From contig KE159810.1 of assembly GCA_000403495.2 (NCBI GenBank), positions 248,001 through 312,000 of the forward strand: a DNA stretch of 64,000 nucleotides, written 5' to 3'. Shown piece after piece: positions 1,503 to 16,159 of the stretch. Every line of letters begins with the position of its first letter. Position 1 is the first letter of the stretch. The position numbers and the translations under genes are program-made. Under the pieces are notes generated by a model that was not told the origin of the DNA, searched no databases, and worked only from the letters and a program-made list of their open reading frames with translations. This DNA comes from Lachnospiraceae bacterium 10-1. GTDB lineage: Bacteria > Bacillota > Clostridia > Lachnospirales > Lachnospiraceae.

Positions 1503-3302
1503 TCATTGTGCATCAATCCGCGCCTTTAAATCCTCCAAATACATCCAGCGGTCCATCTTTTCTTCCAGCTCCTGTTCTGTCTGCTGTTTTTGTCCGGTTA
1601 ATTCGTTCAGTCTGACAAAATCAGTGGCTGCTTCCATAATCTGCTGCTCTAAACTGCTGATTTTCTCTTCCAGTGCTGCAATTTCTCCCTCAATCACTTC
1701 ATAGTCTTTTTGCTCCTTATAGGTAAATTTCAGCTTCTTTTCTGGCTCCTTCCAGCTATTTTTCTTATTATGGATGGTTTTCTCATCTTTACTGCCGCCT
1801 GCCGCTTTTCCGTTTTCTTCTCCGGCCTCCTGCATCACGCGCATTTTATAATCCGTATAACCGCCCTCATACTGTTTCAGCACTCCGTCTTTCTCAAAGG
1901 CAAAAATCCTTTTTACAACCCGATCCAAAAAATAACGGTCATGGGAAACGGTAATTACAATTCCTGAAAAGCTGTCCAGATAGTCTTCCAGTATGGCCAG
2001 TGTGGTAATATCCAGATCATTGGTAGGCTCATCCAAAATCAACACATTAGGCGCCCCCATAAGCACCTTCAGCAAATTCAGCCGCCGCTTTTCCCCGCCA
2101 GAAAGCCTGCTTAAAAGTCCATACTGATCCTTCCCCTCGAATAAAAACCTCTCCAGCATCTGGGAAGCGCTCACACTTCCCTCCTGTGTCTTTACGTATT
2201 CCGCCACATCCTTAATGTAGTCGATTACCCGCTTATCGGAAGGCATTTCCGTTTCACCGATTTCCTGGGCATAATATCCAATTTTAACTGTCTGTCCTAA
2301 AATTACTTTTCCCGCATCAGGAAGGATTTCTCCTGTGAGAATTTTCATCAAAGTAGTCTTACCACAGCCATTAGGACCAATAAATCCAATTCTGTCATTT
2401 TTTAGAAAAGTATAAGAAAAATCCTGAATCAGCACTTTATCCCCATAGGCTTTACCAATCTGCTCAATTTCCACAGTAGTTTTTCCAAGCCGGGTGGAAA
2501 CAGAGCTGATTTCCACTTTCCCATCCACTGCCGGTGCCGACGCATTTTTCAGTTCTTCATACCGCTCTAATCTGGCCTTTTGCTTGGTAGTCCGCGCCCT
2601 GGCACCTCTTTTTACCCATTCTAACTCCTTGCGCAAAACAGACTGGCGTTTCCGTTCACTTGCAAGGGCCGCTTCCTCCCGGGCTGCCTTCAATTCCAAA
2701 AATCCTGCATAATTCGCCTGATAAGAATAAATTTTTCCTTTGTCAATCTCTACAATACGGTTTGACACGCTGTCCAAAAAATAACGGTCATGAGTGACCA
2801 TGACAACTGCCCCTGTATAATTTATCAACTGTCCTTCCAGCCACTGCGCCATATCATGATCCAAATGATTGGTAGGCTCATCCAAAATCAGCAGGTCAGA
2901 GGGCTCTAAAAGGGCGGCCACCAGTGCCAGACGCTTTCTTTGTCCGCCGGATAAGCTGCCGCACAAAGCCTCGAAATCCGTCATCCCCAGTCTGGTCAGC
3001 ATGGACTTGATCCGGGCTTTGTCTGCTCCACATCTTCTTTGAACTGCTTCCATAACAGTGTCCTTTTCCTGAAACAAAGGGTGCTGGGGCAGGTAACTAC
3101 ATACTACATGATTGGCTAACGTAACGCTCCCTTCATCCGGTTCCTCTAAACCTGCCATCATTTTAAGCAGTGTAGATTTGCCTGTTCCGTTGATTCCAAT
3201 GATGCCCACCTTTTCCCCTTCCTGTAAGTAAAAAGAAGTATGGTCAAATAAAGGCCGCTCTCCATATGATTTTGTTATGTTTTCTATTGATAAAATGTTC
3301 AT
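1503..3302 (-). CDS. ABC-F family ATPase, Uup-like
   Basis: A soluble double-ABC protein with no membrane domain, the hallmark of the ABC-F family that acts on ribosomes (translation factors or antibiotic protection). Both nucleotide-binding domains are intact: Walker A GINGTGKST and GPNGCGKTT, signatures LSGGQRKR and LSGGEKRR, Walker B/D-loop EPTNHLD and EPTNDLD. A basic linker (TKQKARLERYEEL) joins them, and the C-terminal ~80 residues form a Glu/Lys/Gln-rich coiled coil like that of Uup. The first in-frame start is a TTG at 3314; the ATG at 3302 with GGAAAA 6 nt upstream is preferred. A resistance role cannot be told from sequence. Confidence 0.9.
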   Translation of the reverse strand: MNILSIENITKSYGERPLFDHTSFYLQEGEKVGIIGINGTGKSTLLKMMAGLEEPDEGSVTLANHVVCSYLPQHPLFQEKDTVMEAVQRRCGADKARIKSMLTRLGMTDFEALCGSLSGGQRKRLALVAALLEPSDLLILDEPTNHLDHDMAQWLEGQLINYTGAVVMVTHDRYFLDSVSNRIVEIDKGKIYSYQANYAGFLELKAAREEAALASERKRQSVLRKELEWVKRGARARTTKQKARLERYEELKNASAPAVDGKVEISSVSTRLGKTTVEIEQIGKAYGDKVLIQDFSYTFLKNDRIGFIGPNGCGKTTLMKILTGEILPDAGKVILGQTVKIGYYAQEIGETEMPSDKRVIDYIKDVAEYVKTQEGSVSASQMLERFLFEGKDQYGLLSRLSGGEKRRLNLLKVLMGAPNVLILDEPTNDLDITTLAILEDYLDSFSGIVITVSHDRYFLDRVVKRIFAFEKDGVLKQYEGGYTDYKMRVMQEAGEENGKAAGGSKDEKTIHNKKNSWKEPEKKLKFTYKEQKDYEVIEGEIAALEEKISSLEQQIMEAATDFVRLNELTGQKQQTEQELEEKMDRWMYLEDLKARIDAQ

Positions 3303-3397
3303 GGCGTTTTCCAATTCTTAAGCTTTTATCTAAATATTTTACAATTCATCTGTATTACCATTTTAAATGAGCAGGAAGTTTTTTGGCAACTTATTTT

Positions 3398-4645
3398 TTA
3401 AATCCACCATTTTAACTCCTCAAACATTTCATCCGGCAGGTACAAATACCGGTAAGGCGTTACATTTTCATCATTAGGGCAATAAACAGAAATGCTGTAA
3501 CCGCTATACTTCCAGTCTCCCGGGTACCCTAAAATCGTATCATAAGCGTCAATGATCTCCTTTCCGCCGCTTAAATAAATGATATTTTCCGCAAAGGAGT
3601 CAAACTCCCGCCAGCCATAATACAAAATTCCATATTCTTTTTCCTGCCATCTGCTGACAGTCTGCTTAACCGGCACCGCTTCCATTCCTTCTACCAGCAT
3701 GGTAAAATCCTTTTCTTCCTCATAAATGCCATCGGTTGCGCCATGAAGGTCAATTCTGATTTTGTCTGATTTATTTTCATCATAGGAAATCAGATAACTA
3801 TCCACATAATTTCCATCCTCATCAAACCCTTTTATCATTGTGTCAAAGCTTATGATTGTCCCGTCCGGCCTAAAATGCAGGGAAAAGCTGGTGGCAAGGC
3901 AGAGCTTTTCCGGCAGCTTTACTTTCTGCTCCACATCCTCCAAAATTCCTGTCAGCTTATCCTCATAAATATTATCATGTACCAAAACAACATTTCTGGT
4001 ATTTTTTAACTGCCACAGGTACCATGACAGCTTGCCGTTATAGGGGACTGCACTTCTTACAATCAATCCTGCGCCAATCAGGCTGACTACCATCCAGCCG
4101 GTGATCACCGGAAGCCTGAGCAGGCAGCGCCGGTAAAGTTTTACTGTAGATAATTTCAGCTTCACAAATTCTCTGTTTTTTCCCTGACAGGAAAGAAGAA
4201 AAAATTTCCCCTTCTTCACCACAAGATAGCAATATTTTTTATCCATCCGGTAATACACAATGTCTTTCAGGGAAAAGGCAGTACTGTAATCATTGATTTT
4301 TAATGTAACAAGCTCATTATCTATAACAATTTCCTGATAGGTAAAAGGCAGGCTGTTTCTTTTCAGCCTCCAGCATACTGCCATCCATCTCACAAACAGG
4401 ATAAGAAAAGTCACGCCGCATACAAACAAAATCGGTATATTTTTCCTAATCCGCCCAAATTGGCACAAAGAATAAAGATGGAACCAGAACACACCGCCCA
4501 AAAACAGGGAAAGGGGACGGGCGAAAAAGCGGCAGAGCATTTCCCTGCATATGATCCTTTTCCACTGTTTTTCTGTTGTTTTCGTCTCACTGCCGCAGTA
4601 CAAATCCCTGGAACTTCCAGGTTTCGCCCAAATCATCCGTAACAT
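3398..4645 (-). CDS. Two-TM membrane protein of unknown function
   Basis: I do not recognise the family. The protein has two hydrophobic segments in its first 90 residues (SLFLGGVFWFHLY and ILFVCGVTFLILFV), a soluble strand-rich part that resembles a YcxB/PH-like domain (QEIVIDNELVTLKI), another TM at about residue 180-200 (ITGWMVVSLIGAGLIV), and a C-terminal extracytoplasmic region of about 210 residues. Its start overlaps the end of the M56 receptor gene by 59 bp. The 4645 ATG has GGAGGAG 10 nt upstream inside that gene; an internal ATG at 4540 is the alternative start. It is the last gene of the BlaI-type operon. Confidence 0.6.
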   Translation of the reverse strand: MLRMIWAKPGSSRDLYCGSETKTTEKQWKRIICREMLCRFFARPLSLFLGGVFWFHLYSLCQFGRIRKNIPILFVCGVTFLILFVRWMAVCWRLKRNSLPFTYQEIVIDNELVTLKINDYSTAFSLKDIVYYRMDKKYCYLVVKKGKFFLLSCQGKNREFVKLKLSTVKLYRRCLLRLPVITGWMVVSLIGAGLIVRSAVPYNGKLSWYLWQLKNTRNVVLVHDNIYEDKLTGILEDVEQKVKLPEKLCLATSFSLHFRPDGTIISFDTMIKGFDEDGNYVDSYLISYDENKSDKIRIDLHGATDGIYEEEKDFTMLVEGMEAVPVKQTVSRWQEKEYGILYYGWREFDSFAENIIYLSGGKEIIDAYDTILGYPGDWKYSGYSISVYCPNDENVTPYRYLYLPDEMFEELKWWI

Positions 4646-6890
4646 ATCTGGCTTTCACTCCTCCATCAATACTTTGTTCTTCCATGCAAACGTCCATCGT
4701 CCATTTTCCCTTTTCCCAAAAGGGCGCATAGGCCATAGAATAATACTCTTTAATTTCATCAAACTTTACCTCACTCCACGTTTCTCCCCCATCTCCCGTT
4801 CGTATTACAAAAGGAGTTTCGGAGTCCCTGATGGTAATAAAGCCAACCTCATTGGTGATAAACCGCATGTCTGTGGTAAGAGAATGGGACATGAACTCAG
4901 CCCCTTCTACTACCAAGCACTCCCGCCAGTTTTTCCCTCCATCTTCCGTAACAAAACAGGTGGTATATTCCTGCCACATAGTCCGGTCAGTGGTAATCAC
5001 CAGAAATCCTTTTTCCGCATTTTCCGGAAAGGATACAAAAATTCTCCTGACGGAACCAAAATTTCTGATATTGGTCACCACGCTGCTCCGGTAAGCACCT
5101 GCTGCTTCATCATAAAATACCACACTAAGGGGCAGCACAGGACTTCCTCCGTAAGCAAAAATCTGCTTAATTTCATCACACTGATAGCTGCCTTCCTGCA
5201 GCCGGGTAAGGGTTCCATCCATTTCATCCCCTCTGGTAAAAAGCTCTTCTAAAGTTACCGGTACCGTCTCCCACTTTTCCTGACCTTTTTTCCTGATTTC
5301 AAGCACACCGCCGCTTGTTTTTGTCTCATACACATAATCCCTTTCCTCTTCCGGCATTCCTGTAAAAGCAGGAATATCACTATAATCATTTTCAGGATAA
5401 GCTTCCCGAAAGGCCTCCACAGCCTCGGTCATTTGGGTAATTCCCTGCAGCTCAAAAACATAGTCCTTTACCATCTTCACGTGAACTGCCACAGGATAAT
5501 ACGTATAATAGTATCCATCCACCATCTGTACCTGCCCATAAAAAGGAACCTTATCTAATGCACTTTCATCCGCCAAAAACTCCCTGATTACCGCTGCAAA
5601 TACAAACTCCTTCTGATCTCCTGCCAGCATTCTCCAATAAACAGCCTCCACCCCCGTATAAGCGCCCGGCTCCTCCAGCGAAACCCTGCCTGCGGCAGTC
5701 TGATCTCTGTCATAATTCAAATAACGATACATGAATTTATCAATACAATCCCCATAATGTTCCGGTCTTTTCAACCTGACCTGCCAGGGGCCCTCCGCCG
5801 CATAAGGCAGTTCTTCATAGCTTTCCACCTCACTATAAGGCAGACTCATTAATTCCTGATAATAAGAATCCTCCTTAGCCGGCGCCAGGGGCAGCATACG
5901 TTCAAGTACCTCTCTGGTAAAGCATTCCGGCTTTTCAAAGCCATCATAAATATTGATATTTTCCGATGCCTGCTGCTCCTTTACCTGAATCATCATTCTT
6001 TTTCCGAAGATTCCAGCCAAAAACACTGTTTGAAGAACAAGCAGGGCAACTGCAAAACCGGCAATTACATTATAAGGCTTTTTCTCCTCCATAATGGCCG
6101 CAATCCGTGCCTTCATCATTCCTTCTCCCGCACTGAAAAAGACAGAATGAACATAGCCCCTGGTCCGCATCTTCTCCAGACTGTCTATCAAAAACTGCCC
6201 GTAAGCCGCCCTTTCTTCCTTTCCGCATCCTGACACCACAGTTTCATCACAGTCAATCTCTATGTCTCTGCCGCTGATGCTGCGGATCAGATACGCCAAA
6301 GGATTATACCAGCAAAGGGCATTGCACAAAAACAAAAATAACTTATACCAGGTATCCTTATGCCGGATATGCACACACTCATGCAGCAAAAGCACATCCA
6401 GCATTTCTGTTTTTTCCATTGTCCGGTCTGCCAAATCACCTGCTACACCTTCTGCCGCTAAACTACACGCCCAATCCGGCAGAAGAATCACCGGATGATA
6501 GAAGCCAAGTACAAAGGGTTCTGCAATTCCAATATTTTTATAGACAATACTTCTGTCTGCCTGCCTGCTTCCGGCCTGCACCCACGCCTTTTCAAGCTTC
6601 CGCCTGACCACTTCATCTTCTACCGGTACAATACCGTTAATGCATTTCACCCTGAATTTCCGATAATTCACAAAATACACCAGAACCATAAGCAGACTGA
6701 CCAACGTCATGCCAAGTACCACAAGGGCAAAGCCTTTCTCATAAAGAAAATAGGGCAGCCCAATTTTTTTGCAAACCCGATACCACAAATAATCCGCCGT
6801 ATACCTGATCTTCCGCAGAAAAAACACGTGAAGAAAACACATTTGTATCATCAAAAGCGCCCAGATTATTTTTTTCCATCTTCCACTCAT
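4587..6890 (-). CDS. BlaR1/MecR1-type M56 metallopeptidase receptor with Asp-box region
   Basis: M56 receptors sense an external signal and cleave or inactivate a BlaI/MecI repressor. The N-terminal ~310 residues hold TM segments (about 8-25, 54-75, 183-200, 278-297) and the protease motif HECVH at 170-174 with a downstream DIEIDCDE. The C-terminal ~450 residues are external and, in place of the penicillin-binding domain of BlaR1, end in three Asp-box-like motifs: EDGGKNW (~650), GDGGETW (~700) and DDLGETW (~753), as seen in BNR/sialidase-type propellers. The repressor gene is two genes upstream. What it binds is unknown; nothing points to a beta-lactam. Confidence 0.75.
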   Translation of the reverse strand: MSGRWKKIIWALLMIQMCFLHVFFLRKIRYTADYLWYRVCKKIGLPYFLYEKGFALVVLGMTLVSLLMVLVYFVNYRKFRVKCINGIVPVEDEVVRRKLEKAWVQAGSRQADRSIVYKNIGIAEPFVLGFYHPVILLPDWACSLAAEGVAGDLADRTMEKTEMLDVLLLHECVHIRHKDTWYKLFLFLCNALCWYNPLAYLIRSISGRDIEIDCDETVVSGCGKEERAAYGQFLIDSLEKMRTRGYVHSVFFSAGEGMMKARIAAIMEEKKPYNVIAGFAVALLVLQTVFLAGIFGKRMMIQVKEQQASENINIYDGFEKPECFTREVLERMLPLAPAKEDSYYQELMSLPYSEVESYEELPYAAEGPWQVRLKRPEHYGDCIDKFMYRYLNYDRDQTAAGRVSLEEPGAYTGVEAVYWRMLAGDQKEFVFAAVIREFLADESALDKVPFYGQVQMVDGYYYTYYPVAVHVKMVKDYVFELQGITQMTEAVEAFREAYPENDYSDIPAFTGMPEEERDYVYETKTSGGVLEIRKKGQEKWETVPVTLEELFTRGDEMDGTLTRLQEGSYQCDEIKQIFAYGGSPVLPLSVVFYDEAAGAYRSSVVTNIRNFGSVRRIFVSFPENAEKGFLVITTDRTMWQEYTTCFVTEDGGKNWRECLVVEGAEFMSHSLTTDMRFITNEVGFITIRDSETPFVIRTGDGGETWSEVKFDEIKEYYSMAYAPFWEKGKWTMDVCMEEQSIDGGVKARYVTDDLGETWKFQGFVLRQ

Positions 6891-12665: not shown

Positions 12666-13274
12666 TCAAAAATCAAATACTTTTAGCAGGCTAAGAGCTA
12701 CTCCCCGTGTTCCAGAAATAGAAACTCCAATCTGTGATATTTTACAAGGAGGTATGGTATTATAAGAATCTACCAATTTACGAATAGCTGGAGAAAGATT
12801 TTTATAACAACCAACAGTAATATGAGCCCGCTCTTTTTTCATATCCCACTCAATAGGAAAAACAATATTTTTGAGATATTTATCAAGTTCTTCCTTTTGT
12901 TGCATCAAAAACTCTGTTTGTATTGAATCAATAAATAAGTATTGAGGAGCCTTTGATGAGACTCCCTTAAAATACATACCAGTTGCGTCAAGTGTAAAAG
13001 GACAGATTGTCTTTGCATATACCGCAACTTGTTGAAAGACTCTTTCTAGCATTTCATAATTATCAACAAAACCCATAAAAAGAGAAATGTGAGGCACTAT
13101 GATAGACTCCACCCCCATATTAATAAATCCAATATTATGTTTTTTAATTTTTTGATTTACATCAATACAAAAACTCGTTAAAGGTTCGCTGACAATAAAA
13201 TGAACATTTATCTTAGTTTTCTCACCTTTTCTTAATGATACCAATTGTTCAATATACTCCTCAAAATAATTCAT
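12666..13274 (-). CDS. 2H phosphoesterase superfamily protein
   Basis: A 202-aa protein with the two histidine motifs that define the 2H superfamily (LigT, ThpR, cyclic phosphodiesterases, phage Acb1): PHISLF with His62 and Ser64, and AHITVG with His151 and Thr153, spaced 89 residues apart as expected. Such enzymes open 2',3'-cyclic phosphates or cut 2'-5' and cyclic-oligonucleotide linkages. The sequence is AT-rich. It starts 21 bp after a 2TM beta-rich effector gene on the same strand, so the two form an operon. The pairing suggests that it makes, trims or removes a nucleotide ligand; this is inference. Confidence 0.75.
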   Translation of the reverse strand: MNYFEEYIEQLVSLRKGEKTKINVHFIVSEPLTSFCIDVNQKIKKHNIGFINMGVESIIVPHISLFMGFVDNYEMLERVFQQVAVYAKTICPFTLDATGMYFKGVSSKAPQYLFIDSIQTEFLMQQKEELDKYLKNIVFPIEWDMKKERAHITVGCYKNLSPAIRKLVDSYNTIPPCKISQIGVSISGTRGVALSLLKVFDF

Positions 13275-13295
13275 TTTTTCTCCTTCAGTATAACA

Positions 13296-13934
13296 TTAAT
13301 CAAATGATTTTTTTAGCGTTTTTTGTTTGAAAGATAAAATTATATTTCCTTTTGTTTGTTGAGGTTCTCGATTTGTAAAATATGTACCTTTAAGTTTGTC
13401 TACTTTTTTTGATCGAACAATTATGTCTAGAACAGTAAATCCTTCAAATCTGTCAGAATCTCTATTATCTTCAGTAGTATTAGTCGTTGCCCCATGCCAG
13501 TAATAGATGAGTTTATAAACTTTTAACTGATCATCATATAAAATTTCTGTTGCATAAGCAGAAGAAGAACTATGGTTAGAATAAGCGACACATGATATGG
13601 AAGTAAAGCTTTGAACTATCTCAATTGCAAAATCATGGAATTCACCATTTCTCTCAAGACTCCCCTCCCATCTCCCCTCAAGTACAGGTGTCCAATAATT
13701 CTCAAAAAATGGCAGCCTCATAATCCATGTTTTCCACAACTTTTTTTCTACCAAAGCTAATATCACTCCAAGTACTATTGACAAAAAACTGATTACTTTT
13801 GATACTATACTAAAATCAAGTGTTTTTTTTAATATCAGAGTAAAAAATAAAAGAAGTAATCCAAATCCCCAAAGTACAATCTTTATAATTTTTTTTTGAA
13901 ATTGACTCATTTTCCAGTGGTTATGCTGTTTCAT
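13296..13934 (-). CDS. 2TM, beta-strand-rich effector (Cap15/OptE, S-2TM-beta type)
   Basis: A 212-aa protein with two N-terminal TM helices (about 16-35 and 43-62) followed by a strand-rich domain. Landmarks are VLEGRWEGSL (~84-93), the strand EIVQSFTSISCVAYS followed by a serine cluster, LIYYWHG, and the C-terminal LKGTYFTNR with a late G-x-I-x-L strand. This order matches the SMODS-associated 2TM beta domain of CBASS Cap15 and Panoptes OptE, where a nucleotide-binding beta-barrel drives membrane disruption. No CD-NTase or mCpol gene is in the window; the partner is a 2H phosphoesterase. RBS AAAGGA precedes the ATG. Confidence 0.65.
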   Translation of the reverse strand: MKQHNHWKMSQFQKKIIKIVLWGFGLLLLFFTLILKKTLDFSIVSKVISFLSIVLGVILALVEKKLWKTWIMRLPFFENYWTPVLEGRWEGSLERNGEFHDFAIEIVQSFTSISCVAYSNHSSSSAYATEILYDDQLKVYKLIYYWHGATTNTTEDNRDSDRFEGFTVLDIIVRSKKVDKLKGTYFTNREPQQTKGNIILSFKQKTLKKSFD

Positions 13935-14164: not shown

Positions 14165-14192
14165 AAAAACACCGCATTTAATCGGTGTTTTT
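14165..14192 (-). terminator. Intrinsic terminator of the tRNA-Val/tRNA-Met unit
   Basis: AAAAACACCG and CGGTGTTTTT form a 10-bp stem with an 8-nt loop, immediately after the tRNA-Met gene, with a T-rich tract on the minus strand. The symmetric A/T arms make it bidirectional. Confidence 0.85.
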
Positions 14193-14194
14193 AA

Positions 14195-14268
14195 TAGCGA
14201 GAGGGGGATTTGAACCCTCGACACTACGGGTATGAACCGTATGCTCTAGCCAACTGAGCTATCTCGCC
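14195..14268 (-). tRNA. tRNA-Met (CAT), elongator type
   Basis: A complete 74-nt cloverleaf on the minus strand: acceptor GGCGAGA/TCTCGCT with a G1-U72 wobble, as in Bacillus elongator tRNA-Met; D-loop AGCTCAGTTGGCTAGAGC; anticodon arm ACGG-TTCATAC-CCGT with anticodon CAT; T-loop GGTTCAAATCC. CCA is not encoded. A tRNA-Ile2 read through lysidine modification is the alternative for a CAT anticodon, but the acceptor favours Met. Confidence 0.93.
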
Positions 14269-14300
14269 ATATTATTAAAATATTCTGCATTCACAGAAAG

Positions 14301-14373
14301 TGGGACCTATAGGGCTCGAACCTATGACCCTCTGCTTGTAAGGCAGATGCTCTCCCAGCTGAGCTAAGATCCC
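14301..14373 (-). tRNA. tRNA-Val (TAC)
   Basis: A 73-nt cloverleaf: acceptor GGGATCT/AGGTCCC, D-arm AGCTCAGCTGGGAGAGC, anticodon arm CTGC-CTTACAA-GCAG with anticodon TAC, and T-arm ending in GGTTCGAGCCC. CCA is not encoded. It is the first gene of a two-tRNA transcript with tRNA-Met 32 nt downstream. Confidence 0.95.
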
Positions 14374-14435: not shown

Positions 14436-14645
14436 GTTTTTTTTCAAAATTATGGTTATTTTTTTATTCTTTTTTTCAGTTTCAAATTTTAATTCACATT
14501 TTAGATGTAAATTACTTATATCCTCAGAAACTGGTATGGTTAAAAATATCAATTTTGGATCTATCTCCCACTCCATATTATGTGTAATATAATCCATAAA
14601 TAGTGCACTTATAATTACATCATGATTTTTCAGGAGGAAAAAACT

Positions 14646-15185
14646 ATGACAGCAGCAAAAATATCATCTTCAAATAATAAAAATTACTTACGCCTAATGA
14701 CAGTCACTGCAATGCTTATGGCAATGAATATTGCATTAAGTTCCTTCGGGGTTCCTGTTCCCGGCGGGCATCTTTATTTAAATGACATTGTTATCTGCAC
14801 AGCCGGCATTTTATTAAATCCTTTTGGGGCATTTATGGTGGGCGGAATCGGCGCTTTTCTGGGAGATTTTTTCTTCTATCCCACGCCTATGTTTGTCTCT
14901 TTGATAACACATGGCCTGCAGGCTGTTGTGATTTCCCTCTGCACCCGTCATGCCTTCTCTGACTGCAAAATCAAAGCCTTTGGAGCAGGTCTTGGTGTCT
15001 TTTTAGGTGCAATTATCATGGTAACAGGTTATTCCCTTGGGAGAGCTTTCATTTACAGTACACCGGAATATGCCCTGCTTAAGCTGCCTTTTCAGATCCT
15101 GCAGGCGGTTGTTGGTGCAGTTGCCGCTATGATCCTGTGCTTTCGTTTTAAGCTTCTTGTATTTTACAATAAACTAATGAATTAG
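14646..15185 (+). CDS. ECF transporter S component, substrate unknown
   Basis: A 179-aa membrane protein with five to six TM segments that fits the ECF substrate-binding (S component) fold: an Ala-rich first helix (MTVTAMLMAMNIALSSFGV), the GHLYLNDIVI loop, then GILLNPFGAFMVGGIGAFLGDFF, the usual glycine-rich region. S components bind a vitamin or cofactor precursor and share an energizing AAT module. The ATG at 14646 has AGGAGG 8 nt upstream; the ATG at 14622 overlaps that RBS. No riboswitch precedes it, so the vitamin cannot be named (HmpT- or PdxU-like is possible). Confidence 0.8.
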   Translation: MTAAKISSSNNKNYLRLMTVTAMLMAMNIALSSFGVPVPGGHLYLNDIVICTAGILLNPFGAFMVGGIGAFLGDFFFYPTPMFVSLITHGLQAVVISLCTRHAFSDCKIKAFGAGLGVFLGAIIMVTGYSLGRAFIYSTPEYALLKLPFQILQAVVGAVAAMILCFRFKLLVFYNKLMN

Positions 15186-15247
15186 ATATAAATTGACTTT
15201 TTCTTTGCTATGTGCTACGATTTTCTAAACAATTGAATAGTAATGAT

Positions 15248-15358
15248 GTCTTCAGGGCAGGGTGAAATTCCCGATCGGCGGTTATAGTCCGCGGGCGCGA
15301 AAGCGTGGGGTTTGGTGAAATTCCAAAACCGACGGTATAGTCCGGATTAAAGAAGGTG
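15248..15358 (+). promoter_or_regulatory. FMN riboswitch (RFN element)
   Basis: The conserved RFN core is present: TCTTCAGGGCAGGGTGAAAT, then CCCGATCGGCGGTTATAGTC, a variable GC arm (GGGCGCGAAAGCG), GGTGAAATTCC, and CGACGGTATAGTCCGGAT closing against GAAGG. A GTCAG/CTGAC hairpin with a following TTTTT (15378-15397) is the likely expression platform. It lies 150 nt upstream of ribU and represses it when FMN is plentiful. It accounts for most of the 323-nt gap between the two S-component genes. Confidence 0.95.
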
Positions 15359-15508
15359 TATTGAGATTGTCAGGATAAATCTGACTATGATTTTTGCACT
15401 CTTTTTTATCAAATTGCTCTGTTGACTTTTTCAATATACCTTAAATTTTAACATTTGGAAGGCATTCAAATACTTTCAAATGTTAATTTTATTTAAGGAG
15501 GTATTCAA

Positions 15509-16159
15509 ATGAATATCAGTAAAACAAAGAAACTCACAATAATAGGTATGCTATGCGCGCTTGCTTATATCGCAGTGGTTGTCGGCCGCATCCCACTCGT
15601 ACTTTTTTTGAAGTATGATCCCAAAGATGTTGTCATTGTAATTGGTGGATTGATTTTTGGACCGCTTACTTCATTTGCTGTAACAATGATTGTTTCCGTA
15701 GTACAAATGTTCACGATTAGCGGAACGGGAATCTTGGGTTGTATTATGAATATCATTTCAAGTTGTTCCTTTGCATGTACTGCCGCATTTATCTATAAAA
15801 AGAAGCATAAACTATCGGGCGCCATATTGGGCCTTTTTTGTGGCTTTAGTTGTCAGGTTGTAGTAATGATGCTTTGGAACTATTTAATTGCTCCAATTTA
15901 TATGGGATATCCGAGAGAAGCTATTGTAGAATTGTTGCTTCCGGCATTTTTGCCTTTTAATTTAATTAAAGGAGGATTGAATGCGGCAATAACAATGCTT
16001 TTATACAAACCTGTTGTTACCACTTTGCGTCGTTCAAATTTAATTGAATCCAAGCAGCATTCAAATAAATTGCAAATAAATATTGGAGTTTTATTAGTGG
16101 CTCTGTTAATGATCATAACTTGTGTGTTACTGATTCTTTCTTTTAATAATAAGGTTTAA
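15509..16159 (+). CDS. ribU: Riboflavin ECF transporter S component
   Basis: RibU binds riboflavin and delivers it through the shared ECF module. The 216-aa protein has the family's opening KKLTIIGMLCALAYIAVVV, the loop FLKYDPKDVVIVIGGLIFGP and a late NLIKGGLNAAITMLLY helix. An FMN riboswitch precedes it, which fixes the substrate. RBS AAGGAGG lies 8 nt before the ATG. Codon use is more AT-rich than in its neighbours, and a C-terminal extra TM (about 190-212) follows the core fold. Confidence 0.93.
   Translation: MNISKTKKLTIIGMLCALAYIAVVVGRIPLVLFLKYDPKDVVIVIGGLIFGPLTSFAVTMIVSVVQMFTISGTGILGCIMNIISSCSFACTAAFIYKKKHKLSGAILGLFCGFSCQVVVMMLWNYLIAPIYMGYPREAIVELLLPAFLPFNLIKGGLNAAITMLLYKPVVTTLRRSNLIESKQHSNKLQINIGVLLVALLMIITCVLLILSFNNKV

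Follow-up and report, generated by a model that had tools for sequence, protein, structure and literature searches.

The window, that is, the whole 64,000-nucleotide stretch of Lachnospiraceae bacterium 10-1 that was analysed, carries two adjacent open reading frames on one strand in an operon-like layout (Table 1). Both frames are intact and each has a predicted ribosome site, and they lie where the initial annotation had recognised a two-gene module with a gap of 21 bp. The pair starts ~230 bp past a hairpin that trails a tRNA-Val/tRNA-Met pair; between 11700 and 14650 the pattern scan found three terminator-like sites, against 1.0 expected from shuffles. The GC contents of the two genes, 0.305 and 0.314, are the lowest and second-lowest among the 49 genes of the window (mean 0.412, sd 0.036), and the AT-richness and the tRNA neighbours attributed to the pair were borne out. 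The gene next downstream on the same strand has a DUF5780 match and looks secreted by eye. In the same part of the window, a riboflavin-type ECF S component gene is found at 14622-15185, and an FMN riboswitch (RF00050, 102.3 bits) at 15244-15361 stands ahead of an ECF-transporter gene at 15509-16159. When the 49 window proteins were scanned with PADLOC, 91 models were matched, and the 25 listed were mostly helicase and ATPase models.

Table 1. Features of the two-gene locus and its surroundings (positions in the window)
Feature	Position	Strand	Detail or basis
S-2TM-beta effector gene	13296..13934	(-)	212 aa, ATG start
Probable 2H phosphoesterase gene	12666..13274	(-)	202 aa, ATG start
Intergenic gap, 21 bp, with AAGGAG just 5' of the 2H start codon	13275..13295	(-)	sequence
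Terminator-like hairpin (intrinsic type), after tRNA-Val/tRNA-Met, upstream of the pair	14165..14192	(-)	pattern scan
tRNA-Met(cat) and tRNA-Val(tac)	14194..14373	(-)	

Judged from its sequence, the product of the upstream gene can be assigned firmly to the S-2TM-beta (Cap15/OptE) effectors, a name reportedly coined in a 2015 paper. The landmarks that had been pointed out in it, namely a G-x-W (within EGRWEG), a Ser cluster (SSSS at 122-125), LIYYWHG and LKGTYFTNR, are all present in the translation. Two hydrophobic stretches at residues 16-34 and 43-61 (average Kyte-Doolittle hydropathy 2.48 and 2.52), together with the alignment to PADLOC 2TM models, mark the two N-terminal transmembrane helices of an S-2TM-beta protein, and the Cap15_CD_rec domain (Pfam PF18153) follows at about residues 82-200 with 50.8 bits, above its cut-off of 31.2 (E 2.7e-13). 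There are matches to seventeen '2TM' effector models of PADLOC, PDLC00702 scoring best with E 6.5e-26 over 10-210 of 211 residues; the Pfam and PADLOC queries of the pair lacked the start methionine, and their residue numbers are one lower. The Cap15/OptE-type reading is further supported by hhalign, which aligns the effector to six Clostridial Cap15 proteins at E 1e-11 with a probability of 97%, and by a leave-one-out profile built on the seven remaining rows of alignment A1, which detects it at E 1.6e-14. The effector alone reaches the Cap15 of known structure 7n34 at just E 0.24, and the A1 profile, with the window effector included, reaches the Cap15 structures 7n34/7n35 at E 4.5e-14.

Among the relatives compared, the nearest to the effector are CBASS Cap15 proteins of the same family, at 28-32% identity; the identity to the mCpol-linked effector of locus L010 is 19%. 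Trees of 16 and 27 effectors separate the mCpol-linked and the Shewanella DAC-linked effectors from the window protein with supports of 99/98 and 98/98, and in the 27-effector tree two other DAC-linked effectors fall on the side of the window protein. The latter forms the longest branch of that tree and has no settled place in it; placing it by tree on the Cap15 or the OptE side was rejected on account of this lone long branch.

The product of the downstream gene is very probably a 2H phosphoesterase, as its motifs suggest. The two motifs claimed for it, His62-x-Ser and His151-x-Thr, were both found in the translation, as PHISLF at His62 (His62-Ile-Ser) and AHITVG at His151 (His151-Ile-Thr). 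Compared by hhalign with a LigT/ThpR profile made of three proteins from other families of the order, the protein has both H-x-[ST] motifs in register with these known members, as expected of the 2H superfamily, at E 9.5e-4 and a probability of just 22%. Against the LigT profile it scored 28.6, above all of 200 shuffles (best 25.1), and it came first among 52 window ORFs, with the runner-up at 19.4. Moreover, of the 76 open frames in the window that reach 120 codons or more, only that of the 2H gene has paired, hydrophobic-flanked H-x-[ST] motifs 60-105 residues apart. A chance 2H motif was rejected on the basis of the 200 shuffles and the window ORF comparison.

The claim of a 2H phosphoesterase held as to the motifs in register and the score above shuffles, and less well as to the family models, since the Pfam LigT model PF02834 matches the second half of the protein only, with 17.8 bits against a cut-off of 23.3 (E 0.0038), and the hhalign probability is low. 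By this curated cut-off the protein falls short of the LigT/ThpR family. A HMMER profile of the three LigT proteins did not report the 2H gene at E 1e-3; no PADLOC match, no match to a solved structure (PDB) and no NCBIfam match near cut-off was obtained, and PHROGs gave two weak unnamed matches only (E 0.026 and 0.11). PF02834 at E 0.001 found no match in 24 genus genomes including the window's own; this search missed the window's own 2H gene as well and thus speaks to ordinary LigT proteins alone.

Cap15 effectors of CBASS are accompanied by a CD-NTase, and Panoptes combines the effector OptE with an mCpol synthase (OptS). We searched for such enzymes in the genome of the window (4.57 Mb in 24 contigs, completeness given as 100, a plasmid outside the assembly being possible). 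The mCpol model PF18182, which detects the mCpol of L010, had no match in this genome, nor had SMODS or the Cas10 palm domain. PF18144 proved too weak for Clostridial CD-NTases (no match to those of L003, L007 and L008, and below cut-off for those of L005 and L012); therefore a profile of ten CD-NTases was used on the genome. Leave-one-out tests of this profile recovered 10/10 (worst E 4.6e-53), and it found nothing in the genome at E 1 and nothing at window 2.5-25 kb. The genome search thus covered mCpol, SMODS, CD-NTase and Cas10. The statement of the initial annotation that the window has neither a CD-NTase nor an mCpol gene is supported by the profile searches, which detected neither at window 2.5-25 kb or in the genome. 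A canonical CBASS or Panoptes was rejected because the defining synthases were searched for and not found, which sets the locus apart from both systems, and a type III CRISPR effector in trans was rejected for want of a Cas10 palm domain.

To compare the architecture, 30 other S-2TM-beta loci were collected, nine of them chromosomal (L002, L003, L004, L005, L007, L008, L010, L012 and L079; L078 repeats L004) and 21 on plasmids (L069-L077 and L082-L093; L080 is the other end of the record of L071). From one plasmid sample of 21 records, three were already included and nine new ones were taken in; H19, H27-H31, H34, H35 and the twenty-first record were left out, as was H6 from another set of seven. 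The stretches compared are short, each locus covering ~3 to 6.5 kb. Within them, synthase profiles built partly from the compared loci themselves recognise a gene of CD-NTase, mCpol or DAC type at 29 of the 30 loci. The exception, L087 (NZ_AP023285.1, Agrobacterium vitis plasmid, 579-2986), has no recognised CD-NTase or mCpol beside its S-2TM-beta gene; the C-terminal part of a divergent 426-aa neighbour resembles DAC weakly, with 19.5 bits against a cut-off of 27. A synthase-less effector therefore breaks the rule of the family.

Within the stretches read, a 2H-motif ORF was found beside the S-2TM-beta gene in none of the 30 loci. In detail, paired H-x-[ST] motifs were absent from 126 frames of 19 loci (L078 included, L080 excluded) and from 132 frames of 13 loci, among them L094, which has no S-2TM-beta gene. 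The architecture at the window locus thus departs from the 30 loci compared in having a 2H gene in place of the synthase. Recurrence of effector and 2H gene together, the test proposed in the initial annotation, was not seen at any other S-2TM-beta locus read, and the searches made turned up no homologue of the 2H gene. Among the matches listed from the open-licence literature, which were available in part, there is no description of an S-2TM-beta and 2H pair.

The 2H protein had a match in one of 194 genomes, its own; no homologue was found in the 193 other genomes or in the viral contigs, plasmids and phages searched, nor in genome contigs by peptide pattern. The effector domain was detected in 5/397 genomes of the family, 4/391 of the class, 3/398 of the phylum and 2/266 of the order, the window's own being counted each time and the samples possibly overlapping; of the three phylum matches, the partial one in G1126 (E 9.6e-4) was dropped, because its ORFs are no S-2TM-beta locus. 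These few matches indicate that the pair is rare. As queries, the effector or alignments containing it led no further in viral contigs, plasmids and phages, and nor did two effector relatives in phages. In genome contigs, a two-row alignment query found one locus, L078, the repeat mentioned above, and a further search of 22 genomes returned solely G895, which was already known. No second Cap15-domain protein was found in the genome of the window.

Some part of a 1.1-kb query holding the tRNA pair and the ECF gene was matched in all 37 genus genomes, and 20 regions from other genus genomes, 18 of them with the tRNA pair, contain neither the effector nor the 2H gene. The genes that follow the tRNA-Val/tRNA-Met pair differ among the genus genomes, a few of which share content, and this variable content fits a variable insertion site past the tRNA pair. 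Given the GC extremes and the absence from the 20 regions, the pair looks foreign and apparently was acquired, in agreement with the mobile character first ascribed to it. No integrase or convincing direct repeat is tied to the pair itself. By eye, L046 has an integrase-like gene after the tRNA pair, and L055 has genes that look phage-like.

One way to account for these data is a reduced CBASS, in which a Cap15-type effector has lost its CD-NTase and an unrelated 2H enzyme acting on RNA ends adjoins it by chance. With a synthase in 29/30 of the other loci, loss of the CD-NTase is a natural explanation; broken CD-NTase genes indeed occur beside Cap15 on the plasmids L073, L074 and L075, the effector is the longest branch among 27, as relaxed constraint would give, and the content after the tRNA pair varies in the genus. 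However, no piece of a CD-NTase is present at window 2.5-25 kb or, at E 1 or better, in the genome, both ORFs have remained intact with their predicted ribosome sites, and the two genes share an extreme composition and are separated by 21 bp. We consider such a remnant unlikely.

The paired H-x-[ST] motifs of the 2H protein are those of LigT/ThpR and of phage Acb1. They stand 89 residues apart, much as in LigT/ThpR (85, L064), and the protein is below the PF02834 cut-off of that family. Acb1, in contrast, is phage-borne and has an HxT/HxT tetrad with H44 and H113 set 69 apart (PMC9117128, in part), and the searches found no phage homologue of the window protein, which was compared with it by spacing. 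The spacing would agree with an RNA-damage module, in which the 2H protein would act, by opening or joining, on the 2',3'-cyclic-phosphate RNA ends that anticodon nucleases leave, and the effector would answer the resulting small nucleotides, and LigT/ThpR proteins act on RNA 2',3'-cyclic phosphates according to the names of PDB entries. However, when 20 other proteins out of the 49 in the window were scanned with Pfam, none was recognised as a partner for RNA repair or as an anticodon nuclease, and to our knowledge no ligand of the 2',3'-cyclic-phosphate RNA type is known for any S-2TM-beta protein. This module appears quite improbable.

Alternatively, the locus might be a Panoptes-type guard, in which the effector is kept closed by an inhibitory nucleotide of the 2H protein's making or trimming and fires when this nucleotide is lost in infection. 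LigT-type enzymes can form 2'-5' bonds, and PDB entries named 2'-5' RNA ligase are found among the LigT relatives; nevertheless, we know of no 2H enzyme that makes a second messenger. OptE, a relative, stays closed as long as it has its nucleotide, and removal of the latter by phage proteins makes it fire (PMC12657218 and PMC12657230, each in part). However, the trees set the mCpol-linked and Shewanella DAC-linked effectors apart from the window protein, with the two other DAC-linked ones on its side, and Panoptes often adjoins CBASS (PMC12657218, in part), yet no CD-NTase was found here. Such a guard seems very unlikely.

The arrangement in the window resembles known systems in part. It has an effector of the same family as CBASS with Cap15, but no CD-NTase was found nearby or in the genome, and a 2H gene lies next to the effector instead. 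Like Panoptes, it consists of two genes for a nucleotide enzyme and an S-2TM-beta effector; however, the enzyme of Panoptes is a synthase and that of the window a probable phosphodiesterase. The layout is also like that of CorA and NrN in type III CRISPR, where a membrane effector stands beside a phosphodiesterase for its ligand, although these proteins belong to other families and their ligand is made by Cas10, whose palm domain was not found here. According to the accessible parts of PMC10600005, the ligand to which CorA responds, SAM-AMP, is degraded by NrN, whose gene adjoins that of CorA; by itself CorA was somewhat toxic, and immunity needed both proteins. From partial text of PMC9117128, Acb1, a phage 2H enzyme, cleaves AMP-containing CBASS di- and trinucleotides and leaves the 2'-5' linkage of 3'2'-cGAMP uncut. 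It also cleaves 2'3'-c-di-AMP and thereby triggers a 2TM-beta effector (PMC12657230, in part), and deletion of acb1 from T4 left the defence by one Panoptes system unchanged (PMC12657218, in part).

In view of the CorA/NrN and Acb1 precedents, a 2H partner that clears the ligand of the effector is taken as the most likely explanation, and we favour, with less than even confidence, a two-gene, synthase-less relative of the Cap15/OptE systems. The first gene would encode a membrane effector that, by analogy with its family, disrupts the inner membrane once the nucleotide state of its beta-barrel domain is the active one; Cap15 fires on binding a cyclic nucleotide and OptE on losing one (PMC12657218 and PMC12657230, in part). 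The 2H protein, if active, would hydrolyse the nucleotide that controls the effector and so serve as an off-switch or antidote in the healthy cell. This nucleotide would be made outside the locus, coming either from a host pool (e.g. c-di-AMP or RNA fragments with 2',3'-cyclic phosphates) or from an infecting phage, and the effector would fire when infection raises the ligand or stops the renewal of the 2H protein, giving the pair a presumed role in phage defence. Since no second pair and no 2H match elsewhere was found, the functional linkage of the two genes, which may exist, rests on the layout and shared composition of a single instance. Besides this single instance, it counts against the ligand-clearing reading that c-di-AMP, or any other ligand present at all times, would be difficult to remove and that the match of the 2H protein is individually weak.

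The initial annotation had proposed a signalling architecture without a classical synthase. That no CD-NTase or mCpol was found in window or genome agrees with it; the pairing, seen once and in 0/30 of the other loci, does not lend it support. In its wider form, a Cap15-type effector would respond to a host or phage messenger, and the 2H enzyme, as the sole catalyst of the locus, would clear an agonist or, most boldly, join the 2',3'-cyclic-phosphate ends of cleaved RNA into a ligand that is 2'-5'-linked or cyclic. We regard this nucleotide-signalling defence module as possible but doubtful.

If the ligand-clearing reading is true, S-2TM-beta effectors can depend on a messenger that is produced elsewhere, and what is regulated is its removal. 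The principle of CorA and NrN, a membrane effector with a phosphodiesterase, would then extend to CBASS-type effectors, and a bacterial 2H enzyme would act on immune nucleotides, a role known from phages in Acb1. All these consequences hinge on the two genes, of which one instance is known, working together.

Several of the plasmid loci show arrangements of their own. In L075 (NC_017577.1, Shewanella baltica plasmid, 2408-3522), L091 (2465-3673), L093 (2456-3664) and L092 (2495-3531), an S-2TM-beta gene comes directly after the gene for a diadenylate cyclase (DAC) of DisA type that is short and stands alone, and CBASS genes adjoin. The plasmids are from Shewanella (one), Agrobacterium (two) and Rhizobium (one). 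The Pfam match of the DAC is above cut-off in L075 only, with no match in L091 and L092; the DAC of L091, L092 and L093 was recognised by 32-33% identity to that of L075. The S-2TM-beta gene after the DAC is under the Pfam cut-off in L091 and above it in L092. In L075 the adjoining CBASS genes are a CD-NTase remnant and a Cap15 gene. From their gene content, these loci look like a Panoptes-type guard in which a DAC replaces mCpol. The main text of PMC12657218 does not contain the word 'diadenylate', and 'diadenylate cyclase' occurs in neither PMC12657218 nor PMC12657230.

Two further plasmids carry other combinations. L082 (CP092842.1, Bradyrhizobium plasmid, 2468-5268) has two S-2TM-beta genes with a distant CD-NTase-like gene after the first, adjoined by an annotated CBASS cGAMP synthase and a phospholipase. 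In L083 (NZ_AP027051.1, Vibrio nigripulchritudo plasmid, 1593-5609), the annotation shows a SLATT-domain gene and one for a reverse transcriptase after the pair of CD-NTase and S-2TM-beta genes.
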